64,000 nt of DNA from Bacteroides ovatus (GTDB taxonomy: Bacteria; Bacteroidota; Bacteroidia; Bacteroidales; Bacteroidaceae), in NCBI RefSeq assembly GCF_001314995.1, contig NZ_CP012938.1, positions 5,642,001 to 5,706,000 of the forward strand, in the 5' to 3' direction. The translations under genes and the position numbers were made by a program. Numbering within the stretch: the stretch's first letter is position 1; every line of letters begins with the position of its first letter. Below are positions 1,397 through 29,922 of this stretch, in pieces. A model generated the notes under the pieces. It made no database searches. It was not told the DNA's origin and was given only the letters and a program-made list of their open reading frames with translations.

Positions 1397-4300
1397 TTAG
1401 AATGTAACGTTAATACCACCCACAAATGTGCGGCTCTTAGGATAAGCGGCGTAATCTATACCCGGAGTCATCGCATTTTTCTTACTGCTTGTATCGACTT
1501 CAGGGTCTGCTCCGCTGTAGTTAGTCCAACAGAACAGGTTATATCCTGTCAGATAGATTCTCACATTCTGCATAAACGCTCTCCTTACAATTGTTTTCGG
1601 AAGAGAGTATCCGATAGTAATGTTATTCAAACGCAGGAATGAGGCTTTTTCTACTGCATAATCAGTCAGCTGCATGGTAGTAGCGCTGGCCGGATTGTAC
1701 ATATTGGCGTTAGCGTTTATTTCATTCAGACGTAATCCTGCTGTTGTCATGTCTCCATAGGTATTAAGGACATCTGTAGAGCTGGACGACAGGTTCAAAC
1801 CAGTTTCCGGATCAATCCATGTGTAACGGTTAGACAGTCTGAAATCATTGTTTAAGTTATAACCGGTTCTTGAACCTGAACGGAAAGAAGCTGCCAGTTT
1901 TGTTCCATTGACAATTACATTTCCGAGAGAGTAGTTGAAGAATACATTGAAGTCGAAATTACCTACGCGACCATCGAATCCAAAACCACCGGTTGTAGGA
2001 GCGATAGTGTTACCCAAACGTTGTTTGAGAGGGTTACCATCTTTATCACATTCCAGTTTCAAACCACCCGGATAGTATTTACCACCGGTGATAGTAGGAC
2101 TGTTATCTTGCATTCCGTCTTTTAATCCCCATTCGCTACCTGCCCAAACCAGTTCGCCGGTAGGGTTGGTGACAGGATCATATACAGTATAATAACCGTT
2201 TGTCTTATATCCCCAAACTTCACCCAAACGTCCGCCTTTCTCTACGCGGAAGTCTTCGTATTTGGCCATTGTACTACCTGACCAGTTACTACTTTGCCAG
2301 GGAGAGTCTGTATTCAGTTTATCAATGCGGTTGCGGTTGTAAGCAATGTTGGCATTGAAGTTCAAAGAGAAATTCTTTTTATCAAATAAAACAGCACTAA
2401 CAGACAATTCTACACCTTTATTGGATGTCTGTCCGAAGTTCTTGTACTGATAGTTATATCCGGAGAGAGAAGGAATTTCAGTACGCATCAATAAGTCTCT
2501 GGTTGTATTCCAGTAAAAGTCGATAGCACCGGAGATACGATTGTTCCAGAATCCATAGTCAATACCGATGTTACGGGTAACTGTTGTTTCCCACTTCAAA
2601 TCGGGGTTGTATAAGTTCGTTCCATGTTCCAACATGGTAGTGCTTTCTCCGTTGAAGAAAGGATTGCGTGCATCATTACCTCCCAAAGAGTAAGTGGTGG
2701 AAAGCAAACCGGAATTGATACGGTTGTTACCGGCAGTACCGAAGCTTAAACGTAGTTTCAAAGCTGACAGCCAGTCTTGAGTGTTACTCATGAAAGCCTC
2801 GTCAGAGATACGCCATGCCAAAGCTGCTGACGGGAAAACACCCCAACGATTTCCGGAACCGAACTTGCTCGAACCGTCTGCACGTACTGTAACAGCAAGC
2901 AAGTATTTATCCATCATAGTATAGTTCACACGACCAAAGAATGATAATATGTTTTCTTTTGCAGCAATGGTAGATTGGTTGGCTAAAGCTTTGCCCGAAC
3001 CCATATTTGCTTTCATATCATCGAAATTCATAGTAACAGGGAAAGCTACAGATACATTTTCTATTGATTTCCTTTGGCTGCTGCTTACTTCATGTCCGAT
3101 CAATACATTGAGTTTATCACGACCTTTGAACAGTTTTTTGTTATCATAGGTCAATGTGTTGGCATTACGCCAGCTCATCGTCTTTTCTCTCAACAGGTAG
3201 GCTTGTGGCTGACCGTTATATCCATATTTAGAATTAGATACTGCATCTACTCCCCAATACTGTTCTGTATCGTCAAACTTCCATCCATATCCGAATTCGG
3301 AACGGAATGTCCAGTTCTTGAATGGTTTCCAGTTTAAACCTACATTGTAGTTCTGGTTGAAAGTATTGCGGGTTTTATCCGTTGCAAGCAGACGTTCCAA
3401 TGGAGATTTCTGTTGTGCCGAACTGTTTTCTTCGTCGTCATCACTGTATTTAAGTGAATCAACCGGACGGAATACGGTAGCATTAGCCACAGTTGAATTG
3501 GCAGCATTGGATTCATTGGTATCAGCACCACCACCTAAACCGTCAATGGTAGAGTAACTTAACCGGGCGTTAAAGTCCAGTGTCATCCATTTATTCAGTT
3601 CTGATTTAATTTTTGCATTTACATTGTCTTTTTTGAAGCCGGAATTAAGCATGATACTTTTTTCTTCATTATGGGCATAGCTGACACTATAAGTCATTTG
3701 CTTGGTTCCGCCACTTACATTAATGTTGTATTGTTGCTGGTTTCCAGTACGTCCGAACATCTCGTCTTGGTAATCGGTACCATCAATAGAACGCCAGATA
3801 TCCATATCGGCAAAGTTTCCATAATCCAGAGAACCGATTTCACGCTGATAAGCAACGAAATCGTAAGGACTCAAGACTTCAGTCAGTTTGGTTACCTGTT
3901 TAAAACCGAAAGAAGCACCGAAGTCTACTTGCGTTTTACCTTCTTTTCCGCTCTTGGTAGTAATGATGATTACACCATTTGCACCACGGGCACCATAAAT
4001 GGCTGTGGAAGAAGCATCTTTCAATACGTCGATGCTTTGAATTTCCGAGGGAGCGATATCACTAATGCTTGAAACAGGGAAACCGTCTACAATATATAAA
4101 GGAGAGTTATCCTGTGATAGTGAACCACCACCGCGAACACGGATCTTTATATCTGCATCGGGAGAACCTTCAGTAGTAGTAACACTAACTCCGGCAAGTT
4201 TACCGGTAAGGGCTTCAGATGCACTTGCTACTGGTATAGCAGCTAAGTCTTTGGCACTAACAGAGGCTACAGAACCGGTTAAATCTCTTTTATTGACCGT

Positions 4301-9557: not shown

Positions 9558-11363
9558 ATGAGAAATATATTCTATTCACTGACGGGAATAATGCTCCTGT
9601 TGGGAATAACAGCTTGTTCGGAAGAAGAACGATATGCCACTTCGGTAGTAAAAGAGATACAACTGTTTCTGGATGACGAACCGTGGGCGGTGAACACAGG
9701 TGCCTCTAACAAACCCCTGTTTATCTATACAGCCGATGGTGAGTATGTAGCCAACTATTCGTCGCTTTATCGCTTTCAGTTGCCCAATGGGAGTTATAAC
9801 ATTATTTCTACCACACAATCCGATTCTATTCCCAGTCCGAAGAATCTGAATGATATTGTGATACATCAGGATCCGACGGCTAAAACAAAATATGCCATTT
9901 CGGCACCGGTGGCGTATAAATCCCCGTTCGACGAACCGCTTAGTGTGCGTATGTACAATCGTACAGGTGTGCTTCGTCTGAAGTCTACCGATCGTAAATC
10001 GGATAAAAGCTACTCGAAATTACGCGCAGTCGTTTCTTCACCAATATCAGGATATAAACTATCGGATGCTACTTTTGTAAAAGCTCCGACAGATGTGCAA
10101 CGCGAGAAAGAGACAACAACCGGTGGAGTGAACTACACCGATGACTTTGTATTGTTTCAAACGCAAAGCGAAGGCGGAACAGTATCTGTGCGTATCGACT
10201 ATCTGGATAAGAATAATACGGTAGTCCAATCTAAAGCTATCGATGGCACATTCCCCATCTTGCCTGATGATACGGTACAAGTGGCGTTTGCACTGAACAA
10301 CGTAGATGAACCGATCATACAAGATTACACTGTAACAATTGCTTCGGAAGGATGGAACGAAGAAGATATCAATCCGGAAGCTCCGATGAGAATTCCTGAC
10401 GGATACAGATATGTAAGTCCGGAAGAGAACCTTGAATCAATCTGTAAATCAATGCTGGCGGATGCTTCTGTAAATGAGGTGAAACTTTTCCTGAAAGCAG
10501 GTGCTACCTATAAATTAGGTACACAGACCGAAATACCGAAAGCTCTCTACATCATGGGACAGGCACCGGGTGATGGTGAAGAATTGGCATTTATGGAAAT
10601 GGGCAACATGAGTATCAACTGTCCTGATGCCATTATTGAAGCCTTCCACTTCGAGAATCTGAAAATAAAGGTGACAACTTCCGATTTCTTTAAGTTTAAA
10701 AACCAAGCTTTCCATGTATCTACTATCTCTTGGAAGAACTGTGAAATCAGCGATTTGGTACGTACAATGTGGTATCAGGAAGTAGATGCTGCACAGAAAC
10801 AGATTGCCGATCATATTGTGATTGAGAATTGTCGTTTCTTAGGTTTGAATTCCGGTGGAAGTGGCCTGTTCGGTCTTTCTACCAAGCAGGACGCGCCGGT
10901 ACACAACTTTGTGTTCAAGAACTCTACGTTCCATGCCAACAATCTGACAAGAGCTTTGATAACCGGTTTGGGCAGTATGACAGGCGAATTGAATGTGACA
11001 ATAGAGAATTGTACATTTGTGAGTATGGCTCCTGCTGCAATGACCTTCTTCGACTTAAATCCGAAGAATACCTCTTCATTCCACTTAGTTGTCCGTAATA
11101 ATCTCTTTAGTGGTGTTTGTGAAGTCGGACAGGGAACTTGGTTCACTACAAGAAACGTCACAAGCAAGACTTTCGAGAATAACTATCGCACCAATGGCTT
11201 TGTAGTGGCTAACTGGGGAGTTGATACTGCTGAAATACCGGTAGAAACAGCTCTCCCTATGGAAACACTCTTCAAAGATGTGGCTGGTAGAGATTTCACT
11301 ATTACTGATAAAAACTCCGAAGTATATACAAATGGAATTGGTGATCCGCATTGGATTAAATAA
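9558..11363 (+). CDS. Non-catalytic beta-helix lipoprotein with FimB-like N-terminus (A)
   Basis: This 601-residue lipoprotein has lipobox LLGITAC. Residues 25-275 are beta-rich and FimB/Mfa2-like (for example FQLPNGSYNIISTTQS). Residues 285-601 form a right-handed beta-helix with short repeated strands: FHFENLKIKVTTSDF, HIVIENCRFLGL and LNVTIENCTFVSMAP. The helix ends in a segment shared with the proteins at 18990 and 20698: METLFKDVAGRDFTI followed by GDPHW. I see no lyase, esterase or hydrolase catalytic motif. It resembles the DUF4957/DUF5123 proteins found in Bacteroides pectin loci. A role as a surface pectin-binding protein is an inference from its lipid anchor, operon and fold. Confidence 0.75.
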   Translation: MRNIFYSLTGIMLLLGITACSEEERYATSVVKEIQLFLDDEPWAVNTGASNKPLFIYTADGEYVANYSSLYRFQLPNGSYNIISTTQSDSIPSPKNLNDIVIHQDPTAKTKYAISAPVAYKSPFDEPLSVRMYNRTGVLRLKSTDRKSDKSYSKLRAVVSSPISGYKLSDATFVKAPTDVQREKETTTGGVNYTDDFVLFQTQSEGGTVSVRIDYLDKNNTVVQSKAIDGTFPILPDDTVQVAFALNNVDEPIIQDYTVTIASEGWNEEDINPEAPMRIPDGYRYVSPEENLESICKSMLADASVNEVKLFLKAGATYKLGTQTEIPKALYIMGQAPGDGEELAFMEMGNMSINCPDAIIEAFHFENLKIKVTTSDFFKFKNQAFHVSTISWKNCEISDLVRTMWYQEVDAAQKQIADHIVIENCRFLGLNSGGSGLFGLSTKQDAPVHNFVFKNSTFHANNLTRALITGLGSMTGELNVTIENCTFVSMAPAAMTFFDLNPKNTSSFHLVVRNNLFSGVCEVGQGTWFTTRNVTSKTFENNYRTNGFVVANWGVDTAEIPVETALPMETLFKDVAGRDFTITDKNSEVYTNGIGDPHWIK

Positions 11364-25032: not shown

Positions 25033-26607
25033 ATGAATAGATTGAATCGAATGACTGGCTTGGTATCGGTCATCATAGGACTATTTTGTGCTTGTCAGGG
25101 TACTGCCAAGCAGGTGGATGTGGAGACAGATTTGAAGGCAATGTATGCAGACCTTCCTTTCTCCATGCCCGCCATAGAGCGTCCCGTTTTTCCCGATTAT
25201 CAGGTAAATATCTGTGATTTCGGAGCAAAAAGCGATGGGGTGACGCTGAACACGGAGGCTATTAATAAGGCTATCAAAGTAGTGCACGACAAAGGAGGGG
25301 GTAAAGTAATCATTCCGGAAGGTTTGTGGCTCACAGGCCCCATTGTTTTGCAAAGTAACGTCAATTTGCATGCAGAAAAGAATGCTTTGATTGTGTTTAG
25401 CGGTGACACCTCGTTGTATCCGATTATTACGACTTCATTTGAAGGACTGGATACACGGCGCTGCCAGTCGCCTATCTCGGCAATGAATGCAGAAAACATA
25501 GCTATTACCGGTTATGGCGTTTTTGATGGAGCGGGAGACAGATGGCGTCCTGTGAAGAAGGATAAAATGACGGACAGACAGTGGAAGAATCTGGTGAACT
25601 CCGGTGGTAATGTGGATGAGAACGGCAAGGTGTGGTATCCTAATGAAGGGGCATTGAAAGCATCCGTTCTCATGTCTGGCCAGGGGAATCAACAGGCTGA
25701 AATCACGAGTGAAGAATGGGAGGAGATGAAAAGTTGGCTGCGTCCTGTACTGCTAAGTATTGTGAAGAGTAAAAAGGTGCTTCTGGAAGGCGTGACTTTC
25801 AAAAACTCTCCGAGCTGGTGTCTTCATCCGCTTTCGTGCGAATCTTTGATATTGAATGATGTAAAGGTGTTCAATCCCTGGTATTCGCAGAACGGAGACG
25901 CGCTCGATGTGGAATCATGCAAGAATGTGCTGATTGCCAACTGTTTCTTTGATGCGGGAGATGATGCAATCTGCCTGAAGTCTGGTAAAGACGAAGATGG
26001 CCGTCGCAGAGGTGAACCTTGTGAGAATGTGATTGTGAGAAACAATACCGTTTTGCATGGTCATGGCGGATTCGTAATTGGTAGTGAGATGTCCGGAGGA
26101 GTGAAGAATGTATATGTGTCCGAATGTTCTTTTATCGGTACGGATGTCGGGTTGCGGTTTAAAAGTGCCCGTGGACGTGGTGGCGTCGTGGAGAATATTT
26201 ACATCAATAATATAAATATGATTGATATTCCTAATGATGCTTTGATTGCCGATTTATATTATGCGGCCAAAAGTGCTCCCGGTGAACCGATTCCGAGTGT
26301 GAGTGAAGAGACTCCTGCTTTTAGGAACATCTATATCTCGGATGTGTTTTGCAGGGGAGCAGGACGGGCGGCGTATCTGAACGGACTTCCCGAAATGCCG
26401 ATTGAGAATATTTCCATCAAGAATATGGTGGTTACTGGTGCTAAAGAGGGTATTGTAGTGAATCAAGTGGCAAAGCTCAACATCGAGAATGTTGAAATTG
26501 ACACTCCTGACCAATCTATGATACAGATCGAAAATACAACGGATATCACCATTAACGGAAAAGATCTGGGAACGATTTCAGAGAAACGGTTGCTGACCAA
26601 GAACTAA
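25033..26607 (+). CDS. GH28 polygalacturonase-type hydrolase
   Basis: This 524-residue hydrolase has the lipobox-like sequence IIGLFCAC and then the GH28 opening NICDFGAKSDGVTLNTEAIN. Catalytic motifs run along the beta-helix: NGDALD (about 286, equivalent to NTD), DAGDDAICLKSG (about 306), HGHGGFVIGSE (about 341) and RFKSARGRGG (about 374, equivalent to RIK). The full motif set supports hydrolysis of alpha-1,4-galacturonosyl bonds, probably exo-acting as in many Bacteroides members with this insertion pattern. It is the last gene of the pectin operon and is followed by a terminator hairpin within the repeat element. Confidence 0.93.
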   Translation: MNRLNRMTGLVSVIIGLFCACQGTAKQVDVETDLKAMYADLPFSMPAIERPVFPDYQVNICDFGAKSDGVTLNTEAINKAIKVVHDKGGGKVIIPEGLWLTGPIVLQSNVNLHAEKNALIVFSGDTSLYPIITTSFEGLDTRRCQSPISAMNAENIAITGYGVFDGAGDRWRPVKKDKMTDRQWKNLVNSGGNVDENGKVWYPNEGALKASVLMSGQGNQQAEITSEEWEEMKSWLRPVLLSIVKSKKVLLEGVTFKNSPSWCLHPLSCESLILNDVKVFNPWYSQNGDALDVESCKNVLIANCFFDAGDDAICLKSGKDEDGRRRGEPCENVIVRNNTVLHGHGGFVIGSEMSGGVKNVYVSECSFIGTDVGLRFKSARGRGGVVENIYINNINMIDIPNDALIADLYYAAKSAPGEPIPSVSEETPAFRNIYISDVFCRGAGRAAYLNGLPEMPIENISIKNMVVTGAKEGIVVNQVAKLNIENVEIDTPDQSMIQIENTTDITINGKDLGTISEKRLLTKN

Positions 26608-26710
26608 CTGTACTACTCGTTTTTATACTGTTTTTATTGTCAATCTGTCAGAACGGAAGTTAAAGAAGTGAATTACAGTATAATATATGTTGACAATAGA
26701 AGCTGACAAT

Positions 26711-26756
26711 AGGCTGACAATAAGAATTAAGAGTTCTATTGTCAGCCTGTTTTTTT
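26711..26756 (+). terminator. Terminator of the pectin operon, built from the repeat arm
   Basis: AGGCTGACAATA (26711-26722) pairs with TATTGTCAGCCT (26737-26748), extended by GAA/TTC with one bulged A. The stem is followed by seven T (26750-26756). It therefore acts as the intrinsic terminator for the rightward operon and is part of the inverted-repeat arm. Confidence 0.75.
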
Positions 26757-26796
26757 ATTGTATAGTTATGCTGACATCTTGGAATTGTTGTTTTAA

Positions 26797-27104
26797 GGTT
26801 CTGATATAGTTGCATTCGTATGCCTGTACAGTTGAGTAAGTATGTCTGTATAGTTGAGTAAGTATACCTGTATAGTTTGATTAGTGTGCCGGTATAGTTG
26901 GGCAAAGGTGCCGCTATCTTTACCTTCCCACGGCCGTGGTAGCTTCTTCTCACGGCCGTGGTGAGATACTACCACAGCCGTGGAAAGATCTCGTCACGGC
27001 CGTGAAGAACTAACAAGATCGATACTTTAGCAGAACGATAACGGCACCTTAGTTGAACAATAACGGTGTCTTTGCGGAATAATGCAGGCTTGGTAAGTAA
27101 GGGA
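26797..27104. repeat. 22-bp-register tandem array with CACGGCCGTG palindromes
   Basis: About fourteen consecutive 22-bp units can be laid out with no register slip. Four central units begin with the palindrome CACGGCCGTG (26929, 26951, 26973 with one change, 26995), spaced exactly 22 bp apart. Units to the left (26819-26906) share the pattern TATGCCTGTATAGTTGAGTA. Units to the right carry a related sequence in inverse orientation: GAACGATAACGGCACC (27033-27048) is close to the reverse complement of the segment starting at 26907. The first half of each unit is more conserved than the second half. The period equals about two turns of DNA. Confidence 0.85.
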
Positions 27105-27134
27105 TAATAGCTGCATAGTGCAGTTTTAAACAAT

Positions 27135-27179
27135 AATAGGCTGACAATAAAAGACGAAAATCTTTATTGTCAGCCTATT
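27135..27179 (-). terminator. Hairpin at the end of the leftward GH3 gene
   Basis: A 19-bp stem with one bulge (AATAGGCTGACAATAAA from 27135 with its complement ending at 27179) encloses a short loop. On the minus strand it lies about 150 bp after the GH3 stop and is followed by ATTGTTTAAAA. It mirrors the operon terminator at 26711 and may end GH3 transcripts; the T-tract is weaker. Confidence 0.5.
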
Positions 27180-27330
27180 GTCAGCTTCTATTGTCAGTGG
27201 GTAATAGCTTGAAAACAATCACTTTATGAAGCCATAACTCTTGGCCTGACAATAAAAACCATTTTTTTATAAATTCTCAATGTAGCCTAAGTTCATTAAC
27301 CCGGCCTCAAATTGTATGTAATAGCATTGC

Positions 27331-29922
27331 CTATTGAATCTGAATACTGCACGTTTGCAAGTCTTTTTCATTTGAACTGTTTCCGTAAAGTATCTTATAT
27401 GTTCCGTTTAAAGGACGTATGGTATTGGTCGCTGCATCAAACCATTCGAAAGAATCGTACGGAAGCTCTATCTGGACGTTCTGTGTCTTACCTTTAGCAA
27501 TGCTAACCCGTTGGAAACCACGAAGAGTTTTTTGCGGACCTTCTTTGTCGTCAGGACGGCAGATGTACACTTGAACCACTTCTTCACCGTCTCTCTGCCC
27601 GACGTTACTTACCGGGATAGTAAGAATTGCTTTTTCGCCTTTGGTCAGCTTCGATTGGTTCAGGGTCGCTTTCCCATAAGAGAAACGGGTATAACTTAAA
27701 CCGTAGCCGAATGGATAAAGAGGTGTTTCCGTCATGAAACGGTAGGTACGTCCCTTCATCGAATAATCTTCATAATCCGGTAATTGTTGCATGCTTTTAT
27801 AGAAAGTGATAGGCAGACGTCCGGCAGGATTGTAATCTCCGAAAAGAACATCGGCAACGGCTGTTCCACCTGCCTGTCCGGGATACCATGCTTGCAGGAT
27901 AGCATCGCAATTCTGCGTTTCAGGCACGATGGCCATTGCCGAACCGGAGAAGTTGACGAATACTGTTTTCTTTCCATTCTTCTTTAGAAGAGCAAGAACT
28001 TCGCGCTGGATGGCGGGCAATTCGATTTCTGTACGGTCGCCGCCTTTGAATCCGGGGTCGGATACCCGCATGGATTCTCCTTCCAATAGGGGGGAGATAC
28101 CTCCGGCAAAGATAACTACATCTGCGCTTTGCAACTTGTTCAGGATTTCACGGGCATCCATTGGAGTTTGTTTTGCCAAGTCGAAGTTCAGTGTAGGGTT
28201 ATCTTTAACCTGAATAAAACGCAACTCGATGTCGTAACTCTTTCCTGCTTCGTAGTTGAAAGAATACAGATTGGTATGATTCTTGATGTTGGTGGCTTCT
28301 GCTATTTGCTTGCCGTTGAGGAATAAAGTAACTCCTCCGTTAGTCATCACGCGGAAAGTGGCGGCACCGGAATCTGTTGGGCGGAAAGTGGAACGATAGA
28401 TGGCGGTGAAGTTTTTCAATCCTACACCGGGAGCAAATACGGTAGAACCTTCTGCACTGAAATGGAAAGGAGTGGTCAGACGGTCGGTTGCGGCAATCTT
28501 GCCTTTATATTCGCGGTTATTCCAGTAGGTGGCGTTGAATCCGGCTTCTCCGTCGATGCTGCACTGATTGAATAGGCTGTGCAGGGTGGTGTCGTTTGTA
28601 TATCCGCATACAGGTTCGTAGATGATTTGTGCGTCAGGTAGTTTGGCGCGTATTCCTTCCAGTAGAGTAACGGTATGTGAAGGGAAGCCGTTGTAGTTAC
28701 CCCATTGCATTACCGAGTCGTTGGCGTTGGGGCCGATGACTGCGACTTTCATCTGACGGTTTAATGGAAGGATGTTGTTATTGTTTTGGAGTAATACCAG
28801 ACTTTCGTGTGCCATTTTCAGTGCCAGTTCTTTGTGTTTGGGACAGTCGATAACAGAAAATGGAATGTTACTCCAGGGATGAGTCGAATTCATTTCTCCC
28901 AGTTCAAAGCGGGCTTTCAGTAGTCTTTTGACTGATGTATTGATTTTCTCTTCCGAAATCAGGCCTTTTTTCACAGCATCGGTGATGCTTTTGAAGTTAC
29001 CGCCACATTCGAGATCTGTTCCGCTTAAAACAGCGTCGGCAGAGGCATGGGCGGCATCGGGATGCGTTTCATGTTTCTTGCGTTGGAAAAAGTCTCCGAT
29101 TGCTCCGCAGTCGGTGACTACGATTCCTTTGAATCCCCAGTCGTTGCGGAGAATTTGGGTTAACAGACGGTTGCTGCCGCAGCAGGGATCGCCTTCGAAA
29201 CGGTTGTAAGCGCACATCACTTCTTTAACTCCTGCTTTTTGTACCAGTTCCTTGAAAGCAGGAAGGTAGGTTTCCCATAAGTCTCTGGGTGCAATGTTTT
29301 CTGCGTTGAAGCTGTGACGGTTCCATTCGGGACCCGAGTGTACGGCAAAGTGTTTGGCGCAGGCATGAAGTTTGTCATATTCGGCATCTTCCGGTCCTTG
29401 CAGACCTCTGACTGCCGCCATTCCCATACGTCCGCTTAAATAAGGGTCTTCGCCGTATGTTTCCTGTCCTCGTCCCCAGCGGGGGTCGCGGAAGATATTG
29501 ACGTTGGGAGTCCACATGGTCAGTCCCTGATAACGTTTATATTGTCCTTTTTCATTGAATTGGCGGTTCTTGGCGCGTGCTTCGTCAGATACGGCATCAA
29601 AGACTTCGTATAATAGTTCGTCGTTGAAAGAAGCGGCCATACCTATGGCTTGTGGAAAGACAGTAGCCAGTCCGGCGCGGGCAACGCCATGAAGAGCTTC
29701 GTTCCACCATTCATACGGCTTAATGCCAAGCCGGGGAATAGCCGGTGAGTTGTTTTGCATCAACGCCACTTTTTCTTCTAATGTGAGGCGTTGAAGTAAA
29801 TCGTCCGCCCGTTGTTCCGCAGTTAATTTCGTGTCCTGATAGGGATACTTGCTGGGTTGTTGTGCCTGTACATTTACCCCTTGAATTCCGATAAGACAGG
29901 CAATGATCCATTGCTTTTTCAT
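27331..29922 (-). CDS. GH3 glycosidase with PA14 insertion (beta-xylosidase/glucosidase type)
   Basis: This 863-residue secreted enzyme has signal peptide MKKQWIIACLIGIQGVNVQA. The GH3 (alpha/beta)8 domain contains RLGIKPYEWWNEALHGVAR, DPRWGRGQETYGEDP and KHFAVHSGPE. The nucleophile Asp is in GIVVTDCGAI (about residue 268). The second GH3 domain is interrupted by a PA14-like beta-domain (about 455-590; RVMTNGGVTLFLNGKQIAE). A C-terminal fibronectin-III-like domain carries FPYGYGLSYTRF-type sequence (YPFGYGLSYTRFSYG). The WWNEALHGVAR form is typical of bacterial GH3 beta-xylosidases and related exo-enzymes. It is transcribed divergently from a GH43, so both may trim side chains. The exact substrate is uncertain. 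Confidence 0.93.
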   Translation of the reverse strand: MKKQWIIACLIGIQGVNVQAQQPSKYPYQDTKLTAEQRADDLLQRLTLEEKVALMQNNSPAIPRLGIKPYEWWNEALHGVARAGLATVFPQAIGMAASFNDELLYEVFDAVSDEARAKNRQFNEKGQYKRYQGLTMWTPNVNIFRDPRWGRGQETYGEDPYLSGRMGMAAVRGLQGPEDAEYDKLHACAKHFAVHSGPEWNRHSFNAENIAPRDLWETYLPAFKELVQKAGVKEVMCAYNRFEGDPCCGSNRLLTQILRNDWGFKGIVVTDCGAIGDFFQRKKHETHPDAAHASADAVLSGTDLECGGNFKSITDAVKKGLISEEKINTSVKRLLKARFELGEMNSTHPWSNIPFSVIDCPKHKELALKMAHESLVLLQNNNNILPLNRQMKVAVIGPNANDSVMQWGNYNGFPSHTVTLLEGIRAKLPDAQIIYEPVCGYTNDTTLHSLFNQCSIDGEAGFNATYWNNREYKGKIAATDRLTTPFHFSAEGSTVFAPGVGLKNFTAIYRSTFRPTDSGAATFRVMTNGGVTLFLNGKQIAEATNIKNHTNLYSFNYEAGKSYDIELRFIQVKDNPTLNFDLAKQTPMDAREILNKLQSADVVIFAGGISPLLEGESMRVSDPGFKGGDRTEIELPAIQREVLALLKKNGKKTVFVNFSGSAMAIVPETQNCDAILQAWYPGQAGGTAVADVLFGDYNPAGRLPITFYKSMQQLPDYEDYSMKGRTYRFMTETPLYPFGYGLSYTRFSYGKATLNQSKLTKGEKAILTIPVSNVGQRDGEEVVQVYICRPDDKEGPQKTLRGFQRVSIAKGKTQNVQIELPYDSFEWFDAATNTIRPLNGTYKILYGNSSNEKDLQTCSIQIQ

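Follow-up and report, generated by a model that had tools for sequence, protein, structure and literature searches.

REP/BIME repeats occur in more than 100 copies and have an associated RAYT transposase, and the ends of Tn7/Mu-like transposons carry direct TnsB-like sites. To our knowledge, no settled role has been assigned to genes of the VapE/BT4734 type, nor do we know of inverted iteron-like end modules in SaPIs or SCC elements. Iteron origins beside primase-helicase genes of the kind carried by SaPI5 (Rep/PriRep1) and SCCmec (Cch2) are described in the available part of PMC7581432, and the BT4734-like family is placed among the archaeo-eukaryotic primases in the accessible text of PMC5862659. 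The DNA analysed here, referred to as the window, comprises 64,000 nucleotides of Bacteroides ovatus and contains a repeat-rich block between two convergent genes from the ORF list, which we take to be GH28-like (25033..26607, plus strand) and GH3-like (27331..29922, minus strand).

Ten of the eleven TGACAATA words of the window, counted on both strands, lie inside this block, the eleventh being found at 10996. They are located at 26635 (<), 26691, 26704 and 26715 (>) and 26737 (<) in the left half, and at 27142 (>), 27165, 27176 and 27189 (<) and 27247 (>) in the right half, so that the order R-FFF-R then F-RRR-F described for ten copies in an earlier, sequence-only reading of this DNA maps as it had been claimed. 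The 33-bp perfect inverted repeat reported there (left arm 26691..26723, plus strand; right arm 27164..27196, minus strand) was recovered by an exact inverted-repeat search, and the outer 13-bp inverted pair is exact as well. The 33-bp repeat is the longest exact inverted repeat in 26608-27331 and far exceeds chance, since 60 dinucleotide-preserving shuffles gave a maximum of 16 and a mean of 10.0. Each end of the block consists of a module of about 125 bp with its units in fixed order. The left module (26608..26750, plus strand, V/B type, placed by alignment with 27 other ends) has the spacing <56>13>11>22<, and the right one (27130..27285, minus strand, U/A type, placed in the end alignment) has <58>13>11>23<, the outer boundary being approximate in both. 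The end-module pattern matched twice in the window and never in 100 shuffles.

The block had also been described as lacking a recombinase gene and any coding frame. Indeed, it contains no coding gene, the single listed ORF of 80 aa or more between the flanking genes being a 97-aa GTG ORF on the minus strand that crosses the hairpin and the arrays, but the interior is not featureless. It contains a 22-bp-period tandem array, with a left part at 26805..26914 (plus strand) and a right part at about 27030..27090 (minus strand) that is inverted with respect to the left one, and four CACGGCCGTG-type palindromes spaced 22 bp (26929..27004). The identity of the array at period 22 is 0.77, against a shuffle maximum of 0.48. 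A search with Rfam gave no match in the window at gathering score and six weak matches, all sub-gathering, in the 1 kb around the element.

Related sequences are dispersed in this and other Bacteroides genomes. The block rendered 25 alignments against its own genome (a single contig of 6,472,489 bp), at 7 places, 2 of which matched in the array only; two inverted ends were found at 4.974/4.978 Mb (3.8 kb apart) and at 3.2738/3.2743 Mb (0.65 kb apart), and a single recognisable end at 4.809 and at 5.924 Mb. A sequence-only end model built from an alignment of 28 ends matched 19 of 95 Bacteroides genomes, with 9 to 30 matches each in 11 of them and 1-5 in 8, figures that include second matches on the opposite strand and are not copy numbers. 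A degenerate end pattern, searched by exact match in a genome contig collection from which the own genome is possibly excluded, detected 30 stretches, all titled Bacteroides (xylanisolvens, finegoldii, faecis, bouchesdurhonensis, faecichinchillae, GM023 and one MAG), and had no match in viral contigs. The full-length element described below gave partial matches to 9 records each in phage and plasmid collections, none of which covers 80%. In G085, G090, G043 and other genomes the match to the query was limited to the array part, and CACGGCCGTG-type 22-bp arrays are present in the own genome, without recognised end modules, at about 6656-6753 of L011 and 6438-6526 of L014. A single fixed copy without conserved symmetry, which according to the sequence-only reading would argue against an element, is thus not what was found: there are multiple copies and their symmetry is conserved.

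Full-length relatives of 2.7-5.2 kb carry between their ends a gene for a VapE/BT4734-type primase-helicase and a 22-bp-period palindromic array, arranged as end, VapE, divergent array, second gene and inverted end. Among 21 loci, a VapE ORF was found in all 8 with two ends more than 2.5 kb apart (7 distinct places) and in none of the 13 others, and three further loci (L009, L044 and L051) have VapE between ends. In L009, the protein encoded between the ends has 720 aa and matches PF08800, PF05272 and PF12990, and a relative of it is present in L044 and L051. The second ORF encodes an HU-like 203-aa protein in 6 of the 8 full-length loci (5 distinct places), the copy in L129 matching PF18291 (HU-HIG); that of L133 encodes a 154-aa protein of no clear family, which is the second gene product in the B. 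ovatus group, and neither of these genes was recognised in L134. As judged from ORF lists, with family searches covering the proteins of L009, L129 and L133, no integrase, recombinase or transposase was recognised in the full-length copies L009, L044, L051 and L129-L135, with the exception of an insertion in L044 whose transposase is presumably ISAs1-like.

The short two-ended copies retain the period-22 array in 14 of 14 cases and remnants of VapE, HU or the 154-aa protein in 8 of 14, a set that includes orthologues (L013, L092 and L143; L147 and L148) and copies with related flanks (L048, L049 and L050). From these remnants, they look like internal-deletion derivatives of the full-length element, and the retention of array and ends in gene-less copies is expected if array and ends are cis sites. 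The window copy shares both ends and the array with the full-length relatives and has no genes; no remnant of VapE, HU or the 154-aa protein was detected in it when it was compared among the 14 short copies. We consider it probable, therefore, that the window block arose from a VapE element by internal deletion and is non-autonomous. A MITE-like element had been one of three suggestions of the sequence-only reading, together with a protein-binding boundary and an RNA-processing module, and it is the best supported of them in view of the dispersed copies, the gene-bearing full-length relatives and the remnants in short copies, but no clean empty site accompanies it.

The spacing <56-58>13>11>22-23< is found in the window and in most ends of the ovatus group, and that of the B. 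faecis copies is about <57>13>12>22-23<; a unit is missing or shifted in ends of L012, L013, L045, L046 and L053, among others. Given this conserved spacing, the suggestion of protein binding at the ends may be right. Beyond the outer units, a further 20-30 bp is common to other copies. The TTTTTATA pair that had been proposed as a possible target duplication is present, but its distance outward from the outer units is 8-17 bp, which places it within this shared stretch, so that it is more likely to be part of the element ends. No target duplication was found at the loci compared, at which the termini could be placed to within several bases. In ovatus-group elements, the V-type end carries GTACCTGTTTTATTGTCA and the opposite, U-type end carries TTCTTATTGTCA, and the two-ended ovatus-group copies displayed have one end of each type. 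Because these ends differ in sequence, the elements are polar. By closest match in the end alignment, the window copy has its V end on the left and its U end on the right, and in full-length elements it is the V/B-type end that adjoins the VapE stop codon.

The two inner units of the end module pair as a hairpin, located in the window at 26712..26747 on the plus strand (GGCTGACAATA...TATTGTCAGCC, followed by a T-run) and, as the inverted counterpart, at 27135..27179 on the minus strand. Both hairpins fold strongly (z -6.9 on the left, -6.7 on the right), and in a covariation count on 28 sequences 95.3% of the cells of the inner stem were paired, against 31-52% in slid controls, with both sides changed in 5 of 15 pairs. 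Strong folding, a T-run after the left hairpin and compensatory changes in the stem could all be accounted for if the block were a domesticated transcription-termination or RNA 3'-end module acting between convergent genes, which agrees with the absence from the window locus of the 3' regions that G012 and G129 have there. The units had in fact been read earlier as terminators of both flanking genes and as a possible RNA module; the hairpins and the compensatory changes lend some support to that idea, but a simple terminator scan of the block found none, with 0.5 expected. ORFs are present on both sides at 14 of the 16 sites examined and converge at 7 of the 14 (one-sided binomial 0.04 vs 25%, the sites not all being independent), a bias in the direction of such a module that nonetheless leaves half of the sites non-convergent. 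Moreover, the compensatory changes could equally reflect a protein reading both arms, and termination leaves the VapE full-length copies, the 22-bp array, the polar ends and the outer units unexplained. A module of this kind is, in our opinion, distinctly unlikely to be what the block represents.

The VapE protein retains Walker A, Walker B and the conserved TSN motif. In primase motif I, as defined in the available part of PMC5862659, the second acidic residue is absent from 13 of the 15 VapE sequences displayed, and in 6 of those 13 (L009, L129, L051, L224, L245 and L226) the first is absent too, both being retained in the distant VapE proteins L228 and L248. Given these losses, priming by VapE may be dead. 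The VapE profile matches 7pds with E 1.6e-10, a likeness by sequence to SaPI5 PriRep1, and its AlphaFold model (mean pLDDT 81.9) matches SaPI5 PriRep1 with E 3.1e-13 and TM 0.40/0.59, and also NrS-1 and viral primase-helicases. VapE is likely to be a replication initiator, and we infer its link to the ends and the array. A role of VapE as a defence system was discarded, since the PADLOC 'PrimPol' match only restates the primase domain.

The ends might instead be those of a classical DNA transposon, for instance a Tn7/Mu-like one, with the transposase located elsewhere and VapE as mere cargo. In line with such a system are the inverted ends, in which direct words resembling binding sites follow each other at about one turn, the V and U ends that differ as in polar transposons, and the fact that no recombinase was seen inside the element. 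Nevertheless, among the 11 genomes in which the end model matched 9 times or more, 10 carry a same-family VapE at 72% DNA identity or more, as scored on the 2 best candidates per genome, and cargo would not be expected to be so constant; in addition, other VapE genes have inverted ends built on different words, and the loci compared gave no target duplication. Taken together, this makes a transposon with VapE as cargo very unlikely.

PF08800 was present in 38 of the 40 Bacteroides genomes tested and had 12 matches in the own genome. To look beyond the TGACAATA family, 46 VapE loci were compared with controls, consisting of 6 of the 12 own-genome matches and 40 matches from the genome collection taken in rank order with gaps. 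Left out above the last locus taken were 4 matches close to the end of a contig, 3 whose open frames were short, 3 members of the TGACAATA family in other genomes, the own-genome matches in the ranked list and, for spread over genomes, 13 further full-length matches; in the own genome, L009 was excluded as a family member, as were L233, for which no inverted repeat was listed, and 4 others. When the 3' side of VapE was compared against the upstream 3.5 kb, an inverted repeat of at least 40 bits was found at 21 of the 46 loci vs 1 of 81 control ORFs, and one of at least 60 bits at 14 of 46 vs 0 of 81; since orthologues are included among the 46, Fisher values are optimistic. The other 25 loci gave no inverted repeat of at least 40 bits, and at L223 an inverted repeat that is present escaped the comparison, one of its arms falling beyond the geometry tested. 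In the upstream 700 bp, 21-23 bp was the best period at 38 of the 46 loci vs 7 of 60 controls, and an array of this period stood out from shuffles at 36 loci vs 4 controls, or at 23 vs 2 when a larger margin was required. Array and inverted repeat occurred together at 17 of the 21 loci. The repeat words at these loci include TGACAGCA, TTGCAGAT, GAGGGTA, GGTGATAGG, GATCTAGCG and GTCAGCACT. An order and spacing near those of the window were found at 3 of 8 other-word loci (L227, L224 and L252, with <57>12>10>13<, <57>13>11>12< and <49>13>11>13<), and by the words chosen the order differs from <>>>< in the remaining 5 (L251, L262, L263, L264 and L272). The derivation of the window copy is unaltered by these differing orders or by the motif I residues. 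In the own genome, the VapE genes of L227, L224, L223 and L228 lie between or beside inverted repeats with GAGGGTA, TGACAGCA or TATGATAGATACC.

At the window locus, end-model matches identify the same element between the same flanking genes in G105. That copy (L124:2276-4200) is larger, as a group II intron (Rfam matches at 2363-4200; RT and maturase domains) is located directly after the left end-module hairpin and a DDE-transposase gene lies near the right end. G012 and G129 have no end-model match at this locus. The flanks of G129 are 98% identical, and its sequence beside the GH3-like gene resembles, by eye, that of G012; because this 3' sequence was not seen in the own genome or in G105, the element apparently replaced both 3' regions. 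L123, from G129, has an unrelated stretch of about 925 bp between the flanking genes of 98% identity, although elsewhere the G129 loci compared match B. finegoldii at 98-99% identity, which suggests that the gene cluster was transferred.

The sequence-only reading had proposed a search for dispersed copies and for empty sites in relatives, and the former were obtained but not the latter. No clean empty site with both flanks was found at the window locus, at a site beside an AMP-binding gene, or at L146, L147, L043 and L135, where the intergenic sequence was wholly different, one side only matched, or a portion of the element was present in the relatives too. Beside the AMP-binding gene, the array and end remnants are still present in G099, and G012 and G001, which have no remnants, share TTTACATATA-like sequence with the element edge; target and edge are indistinguishable at this site because that sequence is common to both. 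In a comparison of B. finegoldii DSM 17565 with a second strain, both carry the element at four loci; three of these are 99.1-99.7% identical between the strains, and the flank of the fourth differs. Several copies are orthologous between species, and some orthologues have lost one end, which points to decay. Recent activity is not supported, in view of these decaying orthologous copies and of the element being in both B. finegoldii strains.

Between L044, from B. finegoldii DSM 17565, and L009, from the own genome, identity is 98.7% to one side of the element and 92% to the other, and the change falls at the 22-bp array, the site of the ISAs1-like element in L044. A gene that we take to be polysaccharide lyase-like is on the 98.7% side, where a different gene is found in G129 and in another strain of B. 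finegoldii. The L009/L044 copy may, judging from this shift in identity, be the joint of a gene-cluster transfer or exchange. Three B. finegoldii TSDC17.2-1.1 'plasmids' (NZ_OY725905.1, NZ_OY725922.1 and NZ_OY725952.1) carry the housekeeping genes gcvH, purE, miaA and metA and look like chromosomal contigs labelled as plasmids.

The presence of the element in both B. finegoldii strains at the four loci compared, and the recombination that may have used it at L009/L044, would fit an immobile remnant of an integrated replicon or satellite, in which the array would serve as the origin and the ends as secondary origin or partition sites, and which homologous recombination would have spread in the past. 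An initiator helicase with adjacent iterons is also the layout of SaPI/SCCmec origins in the available part of PMC7581432. Without past mobility, however, it is difficult to account for copies scattered over unrelated sites of a single genome, or for gene-less copies in which ends and array persist, and we find an immobile remnant unlikely.

For the derivation from a VapE element that we favour, the following mechanism can be proposed. VapE, as an SF3-type initiator helicase with a BT4734-type primase domain, would bind the array, the ends or both as iterons and would replicate or copy the element; an intact element would mobilise gene-less copies in trans, so that selection would keep only the cis sites. 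Counting against this explanation are the lost motif I residues, the 25 VapE loci without an inverted repeat of at least 40 bits, the differing word order at 5 of 8 loci, the decaying orthologous copies, the window copy being free of gene remnants, and the searches in which neither a clean empty site, a target duplication nor a recombinase of the element was recognised. At the window locus, the element appears to have supplanted the 3' regions of the convergent genes on either side, whose transcripts may now be ended in part by its hairpins. More broadly, and with somewhat less than even confidence, the window copy could be the gutted form of an undescribed class of recombinase-free chromosomal elements, in which VapE and an HU-like partner would recognise inverted terminal modules (the word varying by family, and a spacing of about 57, 13 and 11 bp being kept in several) together with a 22-bp palindromic origin array, and which would spread by replication-coupled copying and shed gene-less derivatives across Bacteroides genomes. 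Among the literature matches listed, in a coverage outside which most subscription papers fall, no title or abstract describes these elements. If VapE genes serve to replicate small elements whose ends are defined, they would provide one explanation for unexplained intergenic repeats of gut Bacteroides, and would pose the question of how an element with an initiator helicase but no recognised recombinase spreads. The changing of the recognition word at a kept spacing would also be a natural experiment in protein-DNA co-evolution.

Compared with known systems, the ends resemble those of Tn7-like transposons, in which each end has several short sites in direct order and the two ends are inverted to each other, but no Tns/TnsB-type ORF was recognised in the element ORF lists and the unit word varies between VapE groups. 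As in REP/BIME repeats, palindromic units are intergenic and alternate in orientation; the window family, in contrast, is far less numerous (at most 30 end-model matches per genome, vs more than 100 copies) and has fixed-order multi-unit ends and VapE-bearing full-length forms. With the SaPI5 Rep/PriRep1 and SCCmec Cch2 modules it shares a primase-helicase initiator of a related helicase fold and a repeat array beside its gene: the SF3-like primase-helicase is present in full-length elements only, and candidate iterons adjoin the initiator gene at 38 of 46 loci vs 7 of 60 controls. Unlike those modules, the VapE unit measures 2.7-5.2 kb, is bounded by inverted iteron-like end modules and has no integrase or Ccr recombinase recognised in its ORF lists. 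MITEs are likewise short, gene-less, multicopy, with inverted ends, and derived by internal deletion of a longer element. The window copy is short, has no coding gene and has terminal inverted repeats, and full-length forms with the same ends account for an internal deletion, the copy itself being without remnant. It differs from MITEs in that the longer partner element is of the VapE family, with no transposase recognised in it, in that no target duplication was found, and in that the ends are complex multi-unit modules of about 125 bp and the internal array is kept as well. On balance, the block looks like the MITE-like remnant of a family of VapE elements new to the literature searched, on whose ends and array VapE would act.
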